Shown: piece by piece, positions 14,769-35,770 of the stretch | Layout: the number at the start of each line of letters is the position of its first letter | How positions within the stretch are numbered: the first letter of the stretch is position 1 | Assembly: GCA_902596915.1 (NCBI GenBank) | Contig: CACJVQ010000008.1 | Location: 1 to 45,840 of the forward strand | Source of the DNA: an uncultured Pelagibacteraceae bacterium | Lineage (GTDB): Bacteria; Pseudomonadota; Alphaproteobacteria; Pelagibacterales; Pelagibacteraceae | Reading direction: 5' to 3' | Length of the DNA stretch: 45,840 nucleotides | Notes under the pieces: model-generated | What the model was told of the DNA's origin: nothing | The model's database searches: none | The model's input: the letters and a program-made list of their open reading frames with translations, nothing else | Translations under genes and position numbers: made by a program

Positions 14769-15976
14769 TCTCACAGTTAGAAAGAGAAGTTACATTCAGA
14801 TTTTTAAAGACCAGAAAAAATGATGGTTTTTTAAATATCATTTCAATCTTTTCTTTTATTGGAATTTCATTAGGAGTTGCAGTTCTAATCATTGTTATGT
14901 CAGTAATGAATGGTTTTAGAACTGAATTAATATCTAAAATTGTAGGTTTTAATGCTCATGCAGTAGTTCAACCAGGAAATAAATCACTGAAATATATTCA
15001 AGATTTTGATTTGGTAAAAAATATAGTTTCAAATGATGGTGAAGCAGTTATATTGAATAAAGATGTTACGAAGGGAGTATTCTTAAAAGGATATTTAGAA
15101 ACTGATTTCAGAAACCTTCAAATCGTAAAAAATGAGGAATATTTAGGATCAAAAAAATTAAATAATAATGCTATTTCAATTGGTAAAGAATTAAGAATTA
15201 ATTTAAATGTTGATATTGGTGATACGATTACAGTTATGTCACCTGCAGGAATTCAAACTTTAGTAGGAACACTCCCTAAACAAGAAAACTTTAAGATAGT
15301 TTCAATTTTTGATAGTGGCTTGTCTAACTTTAATGAAAATATTGCGTATATAAATTTAGAAACGCTTGAAAGTTTTTTTAATAGGAATAAAGAAGATAGG
15401 TTCATAGAATTTTATTTTAAAGATCCAAAAAATATAGAAATTCATAAACAAAATTTAACAATCATGTTTCCAGATGCGCTAGTCTATACCTGGTCAGATA
15501 TGAATAAATCATTATTTTCAGCCTTGAAAGTAGAAAGAAATGTAATGTTTATAATTCTTTCTTTGATAATTATTGTTGCAGCATTTAATATAATATCTGG
15601 ACTTACAATTTTAGTTAAAAATAAAACAAGAGATATAGGTATCCTAAAATCAATTGGGGTCTCTAACAAATCGATAAAAAAAATCTTCTTTTTAGTGGGT
15701 TTTTCTATAGGAACATCTGCAACATTATTTGGTGTAGTTGTTGGAACCCTTTTTTCTATTTATGTTGAGAATATAAGACAATTTATCTCAAATATATTTG
15801 GCATTTCTCTTTTCCCAGAAGATATTTATATTTTGAATTCTATGCCATCTGAAATAAATATAAATTCAATAATAATAATCTCTCTTTGTTCAATAATTGC
15901 AACAATTTTAGTATCGATATATCCCGCTTCGAAGGCATCTTCTTTAGATGCAGTTAAAACTCTTAAATATGAATAA
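14765..15976 (+). CDS. lolC: Lipoprotein-releasing ABC permease LolC/LolE family
   Basis: This inner-membrane permease of the Lol system extracts outer-membrane lipoproteins and hands them to LolA. It has an N-terminal span (about residues 20-45, after the typical FRFLKTRKNDGFLNIIS), a large periplasmic domain, and a C-terminal FtsX domain with three spans containing KNKTRDIGILKSIGVS and YPASKASSLDAVKTLKYE. The 403-residue length is normal. Translation must start at TTG 14765, which overlaps the proS stop (TTGA); no downstream ATG preserves the conserved N terminus. Only one permease gene precedes lolD, so it probably works as a homodimer (LolF-like) rather than a LolC-LolE pair. Confidence 0.92.
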   Translation: MISQLEREVTFRFLKTRKNDGFLNIISIFSFIGISLGVAVLIIVMSVMNGFRTELISKIVGFNAHAVVQPGNKSLKYIQDFDLVKNIVSNDGEAVILNKDVTKGVFLKGYLETDFRNLQIVKNEEYLGSKKLNNNAISIGKELRINLNVDIGDTITVMSPAGIQTLVGTLPKQENFKIVSIFDSGLSNFNENIAYINLETLESFFNRNKEDRFIEFYFKDPKNIEIHKQNLTIMFPDALVYTWSDMNKSLFSALKVERNVMFIILSLIIIVAAFNIISGLTILVKNKTRDIGILKSIGVSNKSIKKIFFLVGFSIGTSATLFGVVVGTLFSIYVENIRQFISNIFGISLFPEDIYILNSMPSEININSIIIISLCSIIATILVSIYPASKASSLDAVKTLKYE

Positions 15977-16652
15977 TTATATTAAAATTAAAAATCTAAC
16001 AAAAAAATATGAGAAAAATAAATCTATAAAAGTTTTAAATGATATTTCATTTAATTTTGAACCTGGAAAAACTTATTCTATTATGGGTCCTTCCGGATCA
16101 GGAAAGTCAACATTACTCAATTTATTATCATTGATCGATAACCCTACAGCGGGCTCAATCGAAATAAGCAATAATAAAATAAAGTCAAATAATAAGGTTA
16201 AAAATGATTTAATTAGAGCAAAGAAAATAGGAATTATTTATCAAGATAAAAACTTATTGTCGGATTTTACAGCTTTAGAAAATGTTTATTTGCCTAACTT
16301 ATTAGTTTCAAAAGAAAAACAAAAATCTATAGAACTTGCAAAAAAATTAATAAAAAATGTAGGTATGTCATCTAGAATAAACCATTTTCCAAATGAATTA
16401 TCCGGTGGTGAAAATCAGCGTATTGCTATAGCCAGGGCGTTAATTAATAATCCTGATATTATATTAGCTGATGAGCCAACTGGTAGTCTAGATTCTGATA
16501 ATGCAAAACTTATCTTTAAGATCCTATTTAATTTAAAAAATAAAAGCAGGATCATAATTTTTGCAACTCACAATAGATATTTTGCAAATATGGCAGATTG
16601 TAAAATCATGATGAATGATGGTAATATACAAATCATCAATGCTACAGCCTAA
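15969..16652 (+). CDS. lolD: Lipoprotein-releasing system ATP-binding protein LolD
   Basis: This ABC ATPase powers lipoprotein release with the permease encoded just upstream. Walker A is GPSGSGKST (about residue 37), the Q-loop lies in IIYQDKNLL, the ABC signature is LSGGENQRIAIARAL and Walker B is IILADEPT, followed by the switch histidine in FATHN. The 227-residue length fits LolD. I prefer ATG 15969 (MNNYIKIKNLTKKYE), which overlaps lolC by 8 bases; an in-frame ATG at 15948 would add seven residues encoded inside lolC that are not typical of the family. Confidence 0.93.
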   Translation: MNNYIKIKNLTKKYEKNKSIKVLNDISFNFEPGKTYSIMGPSGSGKSTLLNLLSLIDNPTAGSIEISNNKIKSNNKVKNDLIRAKKIGIIYQDKNLLSDFTALENVYLPNLLVSKEKQKSIELAKKLIKNVGMSSRINHFPNELSGGENQRIAIARALINNPDIILADEPTGSLDSDNAKLIFKILFNLKNKSRIIIFATHNRYFANMADCKIMMNDGNIQIINATA

Positions 16653-20167: not shown

Positions 20168-20956
20168 ATGAAAATACCAAACTTAACAATAGAACAATTA
20201 TTAGAAGCTGGCGTTCATCTAGGCCATAAAACTTTAAGATGGAATCCAAAAATGAAAAAGTTTATTTTTGGAAAAAGAGACTCAATTCACATAATAGATT
20301 TAACACAAACCCTAGAGCTTGCTAAAGTAGCTTTAGAAAAAGTCTATTCAACAATCTCATCAGGTGGGAAAATATTATTTATATCAACAAAAAAACAAGC
20401 ATCGGAGGCAATAGCAGAACTTGCAAATGAAACAGATCAATATTTTGTTAATTATAGATGGCTAGGTGGAATGCTTACAAATTGGGGAACAATTTCTAAC
20501 TCAATAAAAAAACTTGATAAAATAGAGTCTGATTTAAAATCAGAGAATAGAGGCTTTACTAAAAAAGAATTATTAAAAATGAGTGGCCAGAGAGATAAAC
20601 TGCAAAGATCACTTGGTGGAATATCAGCAATGAAAAAGATACCTGATCTTGTATTCATAATTGATACAAATTATGAGTCTTTAGCAATTAAAGAGTCCGT
20701 TAAACTAGGTATACCAATAGTAGCAATTTTAGATACAAATTCAAATCCAGATGGTATTGATTTTCCTATTCCTGGAAACGATGATGCAAGAAGATCTATT
20801 GATTTGTATTGCTCACTTTTAAAAGAAACAATTCTAAATGCTAAAAAAGAAGCACCACAGAATATTGCTAGTGATAAAGATACAGAGGCTTTAAAAGTTG
20901 AAAACTCAAGCCCAGAAAAATCTAAAGAAGTAAAATCAGAAACAAAACTTAATTAA
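20168..20956 (+). CDS. rpsB: 30S ribosomal protein S2
   Basis: This is a small-subunit ribosomal protein needed for S1 docking and translation initiation. It has the typical start [25 protein letters not shown], the central [11 protein letters not shown], and [37 protein letters not shown]. The globular family core ends near residue 225; the last 35 or so residues are a low-complexity tail rich in Glu, Lys and Ser, common in alphaproteobacterial S2. It heads the rpsB-tsf-frr-uppS-cdsA-dxr-bamA series and follows the structured leader, whose pseudoknot could block its ribosome binding site. A 29-base gap with an acagga ribosome binding site separates it from tsf. Confidence 0.97.
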
Positions 20957-20985: not shown

Positions 20986-21837
20986 ATGAGTGATATAGAA
21001 AAAGTAAAACAATTAAGAAAATCAACAGGCGCAGGTTTTAAAGATTGTAATGCTGCGTTAAAGGAGTCTAATGGTGATTTAGATAAAGCTGCTGAAATTT
21101 TGAGAGTAAAAGGTATAGCTAAAGCTTCAAAAAAAATGTCAAGAAGTGCAACAGAGGGAGTTGTAGTTACTTCTGGGGATGAAAAAAAAATGTCTTTGAT
21201 CGAAGTGAATTGCGAAACAGATTTTGTTGCAAAAAACGATGATTTTATTGAATTTGTTAAAGAATTAAGTGAATTAAATAATCATCACTCTTCAAATGTC
21301 GAAGATTTAAAAAAATCGACTATGAAAAATAATAAAACCGTTGATGAAAATTTAGTAGCCTTAATAGCAAAAATTGGAGAAAAAATAACAATTGGGAGAG
21401 TAAAAACTTTAGCTGATGAAAATTCAAGAAATTTTGCTTATCAACATTCAGTAATTAAAGATAATGTTTCAAAATTAATAGTAATAGTATCTTTGAATAC
21501 TAGTGAGAAATCTGATAAAATTGATTTATTTGGAAAGCAATTATCAATGCATATAGCAGCATCAAATCCAATTGCATTAAATGCAGATCTGATTGATCAA
21601 GAAATAATAAATAAAGAGGTCAATTTAATAGAAGAAGAATTGAAAAGTTCAGGCAAACCAGAAGATATAGCAAAGAAAATTAGTATAGGTAAAATTAATA
21701 AATTTAAAGATGAAAATAGTTTAATGTCTCAAGATTGGGTAATAGACCCAAAAATGAAGGTTAAAGATGTATTAAAAAACTTAGATATTTCTAATTTACA
21801 AATTAATAATTTTATTAGGCTAAAAATAGGTGAGTAA
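20986..21837 (+). CDS. tsf: Translation elongation factor Ts
   Basis: This is the guanine-nucleotide exchange factor for EF-Tu. The UBA-like N-terminal domain has [21 protein letters not shown], followed by the core motif [15 protein letters not shown] that contacts EF-Tu. The 283-residue length is usual for the family, with divergent lysine-rich central and C-terminal parts. Its stop shares one base with the frr start (TAATG), with an aggtgag ribosome binding site for frr inside the end of tsf. In many alphaproteobacteria pyrH lies between tsf and frr; here it does not. Confidence 0.96.
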
Positions 21838-22286
21838 TGTTTGAGGAGTCAAAATACAATAATAAAATGTCCAAAACATATGAAGTGTTTCAAAGTGAAC
21901 TGAGCTCATTAAGAACAGGAAGAGCGAATGCAGCTATGTTAGACATTGTAAAAGTTGATGTTTATGGACAAAAAATGCCAATTAATCAATTAGGTAGTAT
22001 TACAACCCCAGAACCTAGAAGCATAAACATACAGGTTTGGGATACAAATAATGTAGCACTTATAGACTCTGCAATTAAAAAATCAGAGTTAGGATTAAAT
22101 CCTCAGATTGATGGACAATTAATTAGATTACCTGTCCCTGATCTTAGTGAAGAAAGAAGATCGGAAATAAAGAAAATAATTAAATCTATGGGTGAAAAAT
22201 GTAAAGTATCTATAAGAAATATAAGAAGAGAAGCAAATGATGAGTTAAAAAAACTTCTAAAAGATAAAGAGATTTCAGAAGATTAA
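21837..22286 (+). CDS. frr: Ribosome recycling factor, cut short by an in-frame TAA
   Basis: Ribosome recycling factor works with EF-G to split post-termination ribosomes and is essential in E. coli. The 149 readable residues match the family: ELSSLRTGRANAAMLD, VDVYG, PINQLGSITTPEPRS, then the second domain with LIRLPVPDLSEERR, and RNIRREANDELKKLLKDKEISED. The frame then meets TAA at 22284-22286, where the family usually continues with E or another residue for about 35 more residues. Those residues are still encoded in the same frame downstream (next entry). As written, the product lacks the last long helix of the three-helix bundle of domain I. A GAA-to-TAA single change would explain it. 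A sequencing or assembly error is possible. Confidence 0.9.
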   Translation: MFEESKYNNKMSKTYEVFQSELSSLRTGRANAAMLDIVKVDVYGQKMPINQLGSITTPEPRSINIQVWDTNNVALIDSAIKKSELGLNPQIDGQLIRLPVPDLSEERRSEIKKIIKSMGEKCKVSIRNIRREANDELKKLLKDKEISED

Positions 22287-22388
22287 GTAAAAAAAAAAGA
22301 AAAAATTATTCAAGATTATACGGACAGCCAAATAAAAGTTATTGATGATAGAGTTGCTGCAAAAGAAAATGAAATAATGACAATATGA
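22287..22388 (+). pseudogene. frr: Separated C-terminal end of frr, same frame, beyond the TAA
   Basis: Read in the frr frame after the stop, these bases encode 33 residues starting VKKKEKIIQDYTD and ending AAKENEIMTI, then TGA. This matches the charged C-terminal helix of ribosome recycling factor (family endings resemble LAAKEKEIMEV). The restored protein would be 183 residues with one residue at the stop position, close to the usual 185. Its natural TGA overlaps the uppS ATG by four bases (ATGA), the junction expected for an intact gene in this operon. The segment has no start of its own and is translated only if the stop is read through or is an error. A run of ten A bases lies at 22289-22298. 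Confidence 0.85.
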
Positions 22389-23065
22389 TTTTGCCCAAAC
22401 ACGTAGCCATAATAATGGATGGCAATGGAAGATGGGGAATTCAAAAAAAAAAATCAAGAAATTACGGACATTCTAAAGGTATAGAGGTTGTAGAAAATAT
22501 CATCGAAGAAGCAGTATCAAAAAAAATAAAATACCTAACGTTATTTACTTTTTCGACTGAAAATTGGAAAAGACCAAAAAGTGAAATTAAGTTTTTAATT
22601 AGTATACTAGAAAAATATATTCAAAAAGAATTAAACAACTTAATTAAAAAAAAAATTAAATTAAAAATAATAGGTAATTTAGATAAGTTTCCTAAATCAC
22701 TTAAATTAAAACTAAGAAATGCTGAAAAGTTAACAAGATTAAACAATAAGATAGAGATCATAATAGCTTTAAATTACGGCTCTAAAGAAGAAATTATAAA
22801 TACTGTAAAAAAATTAAATAATTCATCAATTCGCATTAATGAAAAAAATATATCTGAAAACCTATACACCAAAAATATTCCAGATCCTGAAATTTTAATA
22901 AGAACTGGAAATAGAAATAGACTAAGTAATTTTTTATTATGGCAATTATCTTATACTGAGATTTATTTTGTAAGTAAACTTTGGCCTGACTTTACACGAA
23001 AAGATTTCAGTAAAATTATAAATAATTTTTCAAAAGTTAAAAGAAATTTCGGTGGTATTAAATGA
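22385..23065 (+). CDS. uppS: Undecaprenyl diphosphate synthase (cis-prenyltransferase)
   Basis: This enzyme extends farnesyl diphosphate with isopentenyl units to make the C55 carrier lipid for peptidoglycan and polysaccharides. It has the catalytic HVAIIMDGNGRWG motif at residues 6-18, FSTENWKRP near residue 58, and RTGNRNRLSNFLLWQLSYTEIYF near residue 180. The family usually has RTSGEQRLSNF there, so the RTGNRNR variant is slightly divergent. Length (226 aa) is normal to slightly short. It carries an 11-A run at 22443-22453 and another 10-A run at 22646-22655. The ATG overlaps the natural end of frr and the stop overlaps cdsA by four bases. Confidence 0.95.
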   Translation: MILPKHVAIIMDGNGRWGIQKKKSRNYGHSKGIEVVENIIEEAVSKKIKYLTLFTFSTENWKRPKSEIKFLISILEKYIQKELNNLIKKKIKLKIIGNLDKFPKSLKLKLRNAEKLTRLNNKIEIIIALNYGSKEEIINTVKKLNNSSIRINEKNISENLYTKNIPDPEILIRTGNRNRLSNFLLWQLSYTEIYFVSKLWPDFTRKDFSKIINNFSKVKRNFGGIK

Positions 23066-23715
23066 TTGAGCTACAGAAAAGATTATTAACATCTTTATTA
23101 TTGTTGATGATAATCTTTTTTTCTTTAAAAAATTCTACAGTTTTATTTTTTGTATTTTTAGCAATAAACTACTTTTCATTAATTGAATTTAATAATTTAT
23201 TTAAAAATATTTTTAAAAAAACAAATCAACTATATTTTTTTTCTTTTTTAGCTAGTGTGATTTATATTTCTATATTTTCTTTAATAATATGGAATTTCCT
23301 AATTCCTTTTAACAATAAAGCCACAATAACATTAATTTTCTTAATATTAATATGTATATCTACAGATATCGGTGGCTTTATATTTGGCAAATTAGTTGGT
23401 GGTAAAAAATTAACACAAATCAGTCCTAATAAAACTTATTCAGGTGTCTTTGGATCATTTTTTATTTCAATAACTTTTAGTCATTTCTTTTATATTTTTT
23501 ATAAAACCTATTTGATTTTTGAAGTTAATTATTTGATTTTAATAATAATAATTTCATTGATTTCGCAAATAGGAGATTTAATTATTTCATTTCTTAAAAG
23601 AAAAGCAAAAATAAAAGATACAGGATCAATATTACCTGGACATGGAGGAATTCTAGACAGAATAGACGGTATTTTATTTGCTTTACCTTTTGGAATAATA
23701 TTGATTTCTATATAA
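23062..23715 (+). CDS. cdsA: Phosphatidate cytidylyltransferase (CDP-diglyceride synthase)
   Basis: This integral membrane enzyme makes CDP-diacylglycerol from phosphatidic acid and CTP for phospholipid synthesis. The family signature near the C terminus is clear (KRKAKIKDTGSILPGHGG followed by DRIDG), and DIGGFIFGKLVGGKKL lies in the middle. About six hydrophobic spans are visible. At 217 aa it is shorter than the roughly 285-residue E. coli protein, with fewer N-terminal spans, a compact form common in streamlined genomes. It overlaps uppS by four bases and lies one base before dxr. Confidence 0.94.
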   Translation: MIELQKRLLTSLLLLMIIFFSLKNSTVLFFVFLAINYFSLIEFNNLFKNIFKKTNQLYFFSFLASVIYISIFSLIIWNFLIPFNNKATITLIFLILICISTDIGGFIFGKLVGGKKLTQISPNKTYSGVFGSFFISITFSHFFYIFYKTYLIFEVNYLILIIIISLISQIGDLIISFLKRKAKIKDTGSILPGHGGILDRIDGILFALPFGIILISI

Positions 23716-33993: not shown

Positions 33994-34785
33994 CTATAAA
34001 AGAGAAAAAATATTATTATTTTCTAAATTTTTTAAAAGTGATTCACCAATTAAAAAACTACTTATTGAGGTCCTGTTTTTTATATCAAGCAATTCATCTT
34101 TTGTTTTTAGACCACTCTCAGAAATTAGAGGAGAAGAGTGATTTGAAACAACATTATATATATCATAAGTTGTATTTATTTCAGTTTTAAGAGTTTTTAG
34201 GTTTCGGTTATTAATACCAATTAAAGCATCAGGATATTTTACTGATTTTTCTGCTTCCTCAATAGTATGAACTTCAACAATTACACTCATATTATGCTTT
34301 AAAGCTTCCTCGTAAATTTCATCAGCAGTTTTTTCAGAAATACCAGCTAATATAATCAGGACTGCATCAGCACCATAACTTTTTGCTAAAGGTACTTGAA
34401 ATTTATCAACAAAAAAATCTTTACAAAGAATGGGTAATTCAATTTTTTTTTTAATTTCAGAAATATGAGATAGATTTCCTAAAAAAAAATCTTCTTCTGT
34501 TAATACAGACAAACAAGTGACGTTCTTAGAATTATATATATTGGCAATTTTAACCGGGTCATAGTCATCAATCAAAATACCCGCAGATGGACTCGCTTTT
34601 TTGATTTCAGCAATTATGGATATTTTATTTTCTGAATTTTTTGATTGTATTTTCTTTTTGAAATCAAAAAAAACATCTTTCTCATTAATTGTATGCAACA
34701 ATCTATTTACATCAATTTCATGTTTTAATTTTTCAATTTTAATTTTCTTTTTATCTATTATTTTCTGAAGAATATTTTCAGACAT
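33994..34785 (-). CDS. trpC: Indole-3-glycerol phosphate synthase
   Basis: This TIM-barrel enzyme closes the indole ring in tryptophan synthesis. Motifs are SIIAEIKKASPSAG near residue 57, CLSVLTEEDFFLG, LPILCKDFFVD, YGADAVLIILAGI, VEVHTIEEAE, IGINNRNLKTLKTE and a phosphate-binding end SESGLKTKDE. I chose ATG 34785 (MSENILQKII, 263 aa), which overlaps the trpD stop by 8 bases; the longer in-frame start at 34869 lies deep inside trpD and adds 28 atypical residues. It has no fused TrpF domain. An 84-base gap with the lexA promoter follows. Confidence 0.95.
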   Translation of the reverse strand: MSENILQKIIDKKKIKIEKLKHEIDVNRLLHTINEKDVFFDFKKKIQSKNSENKISIIAEIKKASPSAGILIDDYDPVKIANIYNSKNVTCLSVLTEEDFFLGNLSHISEIKKKIELPILCKDFFVDKFQVPLAKSYGADAVLIILAGISEKTADEIYEEALKHNMSVIVEVHTIEEAEKSVKYPDALIGINNRNLKTLKTEINTTYDIYNVVSNHSSPLISESGLKTKDELLDIKNRTSISSFLIGESLLKNLENNNIFSLL

Positions 34786-35770
34786 TTTGTATATTTTTAA
34801 TATATTTGAATACTGCTCCAGACAAAATAAAATCTCTGGTATAATTATATGCAATTTTGAAATTGTCATATTTTTCAGATATCATTAATCCTGCTGCAGC
34901 ATTTAAACATACGGCTTTTGAAAAATCATTATCTTCTCCTTGAAAAATTTTTAAAATTTTATCAGAATTATATTTAGCATCATCTCCAACTAAATTTTCA
35001 AATTTATCTGCATTAATATTTAATTCATTCGGATCAATTATAAACTCAGATATTTCATTATTTTTCAATTGTACAACATTAGTTTTAGCGTAAGGCGATA
35101 TTTCATCTAGACCATCCTCACTATTTACAATCCACGCAAATTTTAAACTTAGATTTTTTAAAGCATTGGCAAAAATTTTTAGAAGTTTATTATCAAAAAC
35201 ACCAATTACCTGCCTTTCAACAAGTGCTGGGCTGCTTAATGGACCTATCATATTAAAAATAGTCCTTTTTCCTATTTTTTTTCTTGTTGGACCAACATAT
35301 TTCATTGCTGAATGATAATTTGGAGCGAACATGAAGCCAAAATTGTCATTTTTAATCTGTTCCTCTATTTGATTTGGTTCTAAGTTGATATTTATATTTA
35401 AGGCTTCAAGAACGTCAGCTGACCCACATTTTGATGAAACTGCTTTATTTCCATGCTTTGCTACTTTAACACCCATACTTGCTAACAACAGCGCTGATGC
35501 TGTAGAAATATTTAGAGTATCTTTTCCATCTCCACCAGTACCACAAGTATCAATGCAATCTTCAACTTTTACTCTTTTTGACTTATCTCTTAATATGTAT
35601 ACACCACCAGCTATTTCATCTGAAACCTCACCTTTATCTGATAATAAAGTTAAAAAATCATAAATTTGTTCATCACTAGCTTCACCATTCATTAAAATCT
35701 TAAATGCATTTTTACTCTCATCAAAATCTAAATTTATTTTATTTCTGAGCTTTTCTAAAAATTGATTCAT
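34778..35770 (-). CDS. trpD: Anthranilate phosphoribosyltransferase
   Basis: This enzyme transfers the phosphoribosyl group of PRPP to anthranilate, the second tryptophan-specific step. The PRPP-binding CGTGGDGKDTLNIST motif is near residue 80, followed by KHGNKAVSSKCGSADVLEAL, FMFAPNYHSAMKYVGPTRKKIGKRTIFNMIGPLSSPA and the acidic metal-binding pair in NSEDGLDEIS. The 330-residue length is normal. It is a stand-alone TrpD, two bases after trpG, and overlaps trpC. Confidence 0.96.
   Translation of the reverse strand: MNQFLEKLRNKINLDFDESKNAFKILMNGEASDEQIYDFLTLLSDKGEVSDEIAGGVYILRDKSKRVKVEDCIDTCGTGGDGKDTLNISTASALLLASMGVKVAKHGNKAVSSKCGSADVLEALNININLEPNQIEEQIKNDNFGFMFAPNYHSAMKYVGPTRKKIGKRTIFNMIGPLSSPALVERQVIGVFDNKLLKIFANALKNLSLKFAWIVNSEDGLDEISPYAKTNVVQLKNNEISEFIIDPNELNINADKFENLVGDDAKYNSDKILKIFQGEDNDFSKAVCLNAAAGLMISEKYDNFKIAYNYTRDFILSGAVFKYIKNIQNV

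Follow-up and report, generated by a model that had tools for sequence, protein, structure and literature searches.

The gene for ribosome recycling factor (RRF), frr, of an uncultured Pelagibacteraceae bacterium is interrupted in its deposited sequence by an in-frame TAA at positions 22284–22286 on the forward strand of the window (here, the whole stretch of 45,840 nucleotides analysed). This codon is very probably a single-base error in the assembly and not biology, being present in the deposit and most likely absent from the organism. The stop is private among the genomes surveyed, its flanks are under purifying selection and the number of such stops fits a published rate of assembly errors; the technical nature of the error is what we infer. 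A T would have replaced the G of a GAA codon, either in the whole-genome amplification of a single cell or later, in sequencing or assembly. In the cell itself, frr was most likely an ordinary gene of 183 codons that overlapped uppS in an ATGA. The first-pass annotation had left four options side by side (error, population polymorphism, readthrough and a working short RRF), of which error is favoured here and the last two rank lower.

The frr reading frame and its genomic context

The frr frame starts at position 21837 (+) and reads ...KDKEISED up to the TAA, yielding a product of 149 aa (21837–22286). Past the stop, the same frame stays open for 33 codons (22287–22385; VKKKEK...EIMTI) before a TGA at 22386–22388, which the ATG of uppS (22385) overlaps as ATGA. 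The in-frame stop, the intact downstream frame and the overlap are all found in the sequence as first described. The deposited product matches the Pfam RRF family (PF01765) with 174.4 bits, against a curated cut-off of 29.7, and covers profile positions 1–132 of 164, so that the deposited ORF stops at 132 and leaves out positions 133–164 of the domain. Reading past the TAA extends the match to positions 1–164 of 164 at 204.1 bits, with one TAA reported inside it. Since a match to the final 32 profile positions is not to be expected of an open frame unrelated to RRF, the tail (22287–22388, including the TGA) represents the real end of frr, and the earlier assignment of these 33 residues to the C-terminal end of RRF holds.

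Solved RRFs end, in alignment, at the same point as the full frr frame. The region corresponding to the tail in the SAR11 orthologue L032 (AG-333-B23) aligns up to residue 183 of E. coli RRF (1ek8_A, 185 residues). Judging from this alignment and from the fold of solved RRFs, in which the part behind the TAA would correspond to the last C-terminal helix, the 149-aa product would lack that helix.

The Pfam scan, which took in 14 window proteins, identified the neighbours of frr on the same strand as rpsB (ribosomal protein S2; 20168–20956; PF00318), tsf (elongation factor Ts, directly upstream of frr; 20986–21837; PF00889), uppS (undecaprenyl diphosphate synthase; 22385–23065; PF01255) and a cdsA-like gene of the cytidylyltransferase family (23062–23715; PF01148). 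The single-copy frr lies between tsf and uppS, as in relatives, and the region is collinear in six of them. Within 20986–22388, the tsf stop and the frr start overlap, and pyrH is absent between the two genes; in E. coli, pyrH presumably sits at that place. The TAA and the uppS ATG lie 98 bases apart, in agreement with the first-pass annotation, while the accompanying concern that translational coupling of frr and uppS would be lost arises only if the TAA exists in the cell; if the TAA is an error, there is nothing unusual about the ATGA overlap.

Of the 50 window ORFs of at least 100 aa, 44 were used, after removal of five that overlap larger ORFs and of a shortened version of the first ORF. 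These 44 end in TAA (30), TGA (8) or TAG (6), and an internal stop occurs in frr only. Elsewhere in the window, on the minus strand at 33994–35770, the ORFs of trpC and trpD share about 90 bases. Given this overlap and an IGPS match that begins at residue 33, translation of trpC probably starts further downstream than its listed ATG.

Codon 150 and frr integrity among relatives

Among 110 aligned frr loci, which include the window's own and of which a few may be one genome fetched twice, TAA occupies codon 150 once, in the window. All 109 other loci carry a sense codon there: GAT in 52, GAA in 43, GAG in 6, GAC in 5, AAT in 2 and ATT in 1. The six syntenic relatives (89–95% DNA identity over 23–46 kb, three of them covering the left half of the window only) uniformly carry GAA, which fits the G-to-T change from GAA suggested at first pass. 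Across the ORFs covered by these relatives (7,653 to 15,186 codons), frr codon 150 is the sole place where the window has a stop and a relative a sense codon; codons were compared column by column, and many of the stops seen in relatives alone, like many gaps not divisible by three, reflect a shifted register close to alignment gaps. Viral contigs searched for either allele gave no match and are hence uninformative on allele frequency. The contig of L189 (G381) ends inside frr before codon 150 and is thus uninformative at that codon; over 102 residues its RRF shares 99% identity with the L032 protein, and the locus DNA is 90% identical to the window over 1.76 kb.

At the level of the genus, an RRF match was recovered in 255 of 399 genomes; this tally leaves out 144 genomes that lack a match, mostly incomplete ones, with seven of these among the 57 genomes at least 90% complete. 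The gene is unbroken to the end of the profile in 243 genomes (150, 9, 80 and 4 from four sets of matches, each reaching position 164 without a stop), and the remainder comprises the window's own gene and 11 weak matches that were inspected. Eight copies are cut by a contig end (G066, G133, G209, G225, G263, G275, G381 and G392), three are frameshifted (G152, G235 and G298) and one, that of the window, carries a stop by substitution, the only such stop in frr among the 255 genomes. By reading frame, the frameshifted copies contain four indels, two in G298 and one each in G152 and G235. A further frameshifted frr was located outside the 399 genomes (L058, 3001–3549; G429, AG-333-N19).

All these frameshifts (L058, L181, L187 and L188, from G429, G235, G298 and G152, respectively) lie in or beside runs of A, and they are likely assembly indels. 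In AT-rich endosymbionts, slippage on poly-A restores the reading frame, and the frameshifted frr copies may be rescued in the same manner.

Observed breaks and the published error rate

The genome comprises 1.01 Mb in 44 contigs and is 77.9% complete. The 80 nearest loci kept belong to Pelagibacteraceae or Pelagibacterales (SAR11) records and comprise 76 with AG- codes, one AH-, one SAG-MED, one GOM and one metagenome bin, some of the AG- records being titled 'MAG'. AG- codes presumably denote single-cell genomes of the GORG-Tropics set; these relatives, together with the size and completeness of the assembly, suggest that the window's assembly is itself a single-cell amplified genome. For the GORG-Tropics single-cell workflow, an excerpt of PMC11247762 gives a benchmark of 5.0 mismatches, 3.0 indels and 1.5 misassemblies per 100 kb, and identical numbers stand in an excerpt of PMC6122165.

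By computation, 5.9% of random substitutions in frr create a stop (5.6% in the window coding sequence). At the benchmark rate, 247 frr genes should accordingly hold 0.40 stops and 4.1 indels, where one stop and four indels (in three genomes) were seen; the chance of at least one stop at this rate is 0.33. One stop against 0.40 expected weakly supports an error, in a gene that was singled out because its stop had been noticed. In 428,404 bases of the genome, the benchmark predicts 1.2 stops before correction for sensitivity, and one was found, that in frr. The frr stop was picked up there by a codon-usage scan whose sensitivity in simulated cases was 68.5% at a lax threshold and 15% at a strict one. 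The scan returned 46 lax and six strict candidates. Apart from frr, visual inspection put these (45 and five, respectively) down to adjacent genes sharing a frame or to antisense frames, leaving the frr stop as the only convincing in-gene stop in the bases scanned. About two errors are expected in the 45.8 kb window at the benchmark rate, too few for a test of G-to-T excess.

Indels were assessed against the nearest genome, G424 (801 kb used), in which 253 of 774 ORFs matched the sampled part of the window's genome at 80% identity or more, amounting to 75,130 residues. No frameshift against G424 was found in these compared residues. Planted deletions were recovered in 143 of 199 cases, and on this basis 4.9 frameshifts would be expected at 3.0 per 100 kb, so that zero has a P of about 0.008. 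The same comparison flagged three stops in the window's genome, namely frr and two antisense ORFs, and gave five flags in G424 (four ORFs). The two antisense cases were discarded, one lying antisense to the window gene at 15948–16652 and the other (L179, 4307–4570) antisense to a minus-strand ORF of 358 codons. The assembly thus seems to contain fewer indels than the benchmark implies, and mismatches, too, may be rarer in it than 5 per 100 kb. According to an excerpt of PMC5519541, such errors were least numerous in the small genome of Prochlorococcus marinus; by analogy, low error for small genomes may hold for SAR11 too.

Taken against the mismatches of GORG-Tropics single-cell assemblies, the window's stop is similar in being an isolated and private substitution within an otherwise intact gene, free of relaxed selection nearby and at a frequency that fits the benchmark; the difference lies in the indel rate of the window's genome, which seems lower than that of the workflow.

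A real nonsense mutation, newly arisen in the sorted cell, about to be lost and with no lineage behind it, is an improbable origin of the TAA, even though such a change would equally be private among the genomes surveyed and would, being very young, leave its flanks as unaltered as an error does. Mutation and error are indistinguishable by sequence alone, and mutation is much the rarer a priori: in living cells, it occurs per base at a rate orders of magnitude below the benchmark rate of 5 mismatches per 100 kb. Selection would, moreover, remove the loss of an essential gene. Heritable loss of frr is unlikely because excerpts of PMC5242463 and PMC7538156 present RRF as indispensable to bacteria.

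Selection on the body and tail of frr

The closest comparison is provided by the L032 orthologue, which resembles the window's frr in neighbourhood, in frame length and in the identity of its protein at the other 182 residues. However, L032 has GAA at codon 150, where the deposited window has TAA. The two genes differ by nine synonymous and no nonsynonymous codons before the stop and by one synonymous and no nonsynonymous codon after it. Because these ten differences around the stop are all synonymous, the last helix is still constrained, and the codons on both sides of the TAA are under normal purifying selection.

Counts against four further relatives, given as synonymous and nonsynonymous codons, were 11 and 1 before the stop and 3 and 0 after it for L034, 11 and 1 before and 5 and 1 after for L033, 20 and 2 before and 4 and 1 after for L035, and 15 and 1 before and 2 and 3 after for L020. 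In distant relatives the tail is more variable than the body, whereas in the closest relatives the tail protein is unchanged. Prolonged disuse would have let the tail diverge.

These counts also bear on the proposal that a shortened RRF of 149 aa functions in the lineage, which we consider highly unlikely. The protein is intact over profile positions 1–132, as that proposal demands, but a dispensable tail would not stay for long with no nonsynonymous changes against both L032 and L034. Solved RRFs, moreover, extend to the same end as the full frame, and in none of the other surveyed genomes is frr stopped by a substitution, a point that is not absolute since three frameshifted genes also lose the tail. 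The pattern is better accounted for by a base error in an frr whose full length is under selection.

Decoding machinery and copy number

In the genome, 21 tRNAs (L125–L145) and the tmRNA were located; none of the tRNAs serves Glu, Lys, Asp or Pro, probably as a consequence of the 78% completeness. An anticodon reading UAA is absent from these 21 tRNAs, an incomplete set given that about 22% of the genome is missing, and no suppressor tRNA was found in the window. Two RF-1 family genes are present in the genome and speak against a missing release factor. Together with the 30 of 44 window ORFs that end in TAA, they lend no support to reassignment of the code, which the original judgement had likewise set aside.

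Readthrough or suppression of the TAA, by which a full-length RRF would be made, is less likely still than a working short protein. The frame behind the TAA is open and conserved, as readthrough would lead one to expect. However, none of the 21 tRNAs in the incomplete set has an anticodon reading UAA, TAA ends most of the window ORFs in a genome with two RF-1 family genes, and the stop is not conserved in relatives, being absent from all 109 other loci, where a conserved readthrough site would have been kept.

The assembly contains one RRF match, and the proposed search of the rest of the genome for a second frr found none in the assembled part (77.9% complete). The least likely reading is that frr is here a pseudogene with an intact second copy in the unassembled part, for which the incomplete assembly leaves room, but against which stand the one match in the assembly and the nature of the double matches, confined among the 255 genomes to G152 and G298, where each pair consists of pieces of one frameshifted gene.

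Implications for reading broken essential genes

A probable error of assembly in an otherwise ordinary SAR11 frr carries a caution of its own. One substitution stop and three frameshifted copies among 255 frr matches come close to what the published error rate predicts, and breaks in essential genes should therefore not be read as gene loss without the reads. It is highly unlikely that a SAR11 lineage instead does without the last helix of RRF, or obtains the full protein only by readthrough of UAA. A real stop would call into question whether RRF needs its C-terminal end, and, in the case of readthrough, the decoding of a stop codon would tune ribosome recycling itself.
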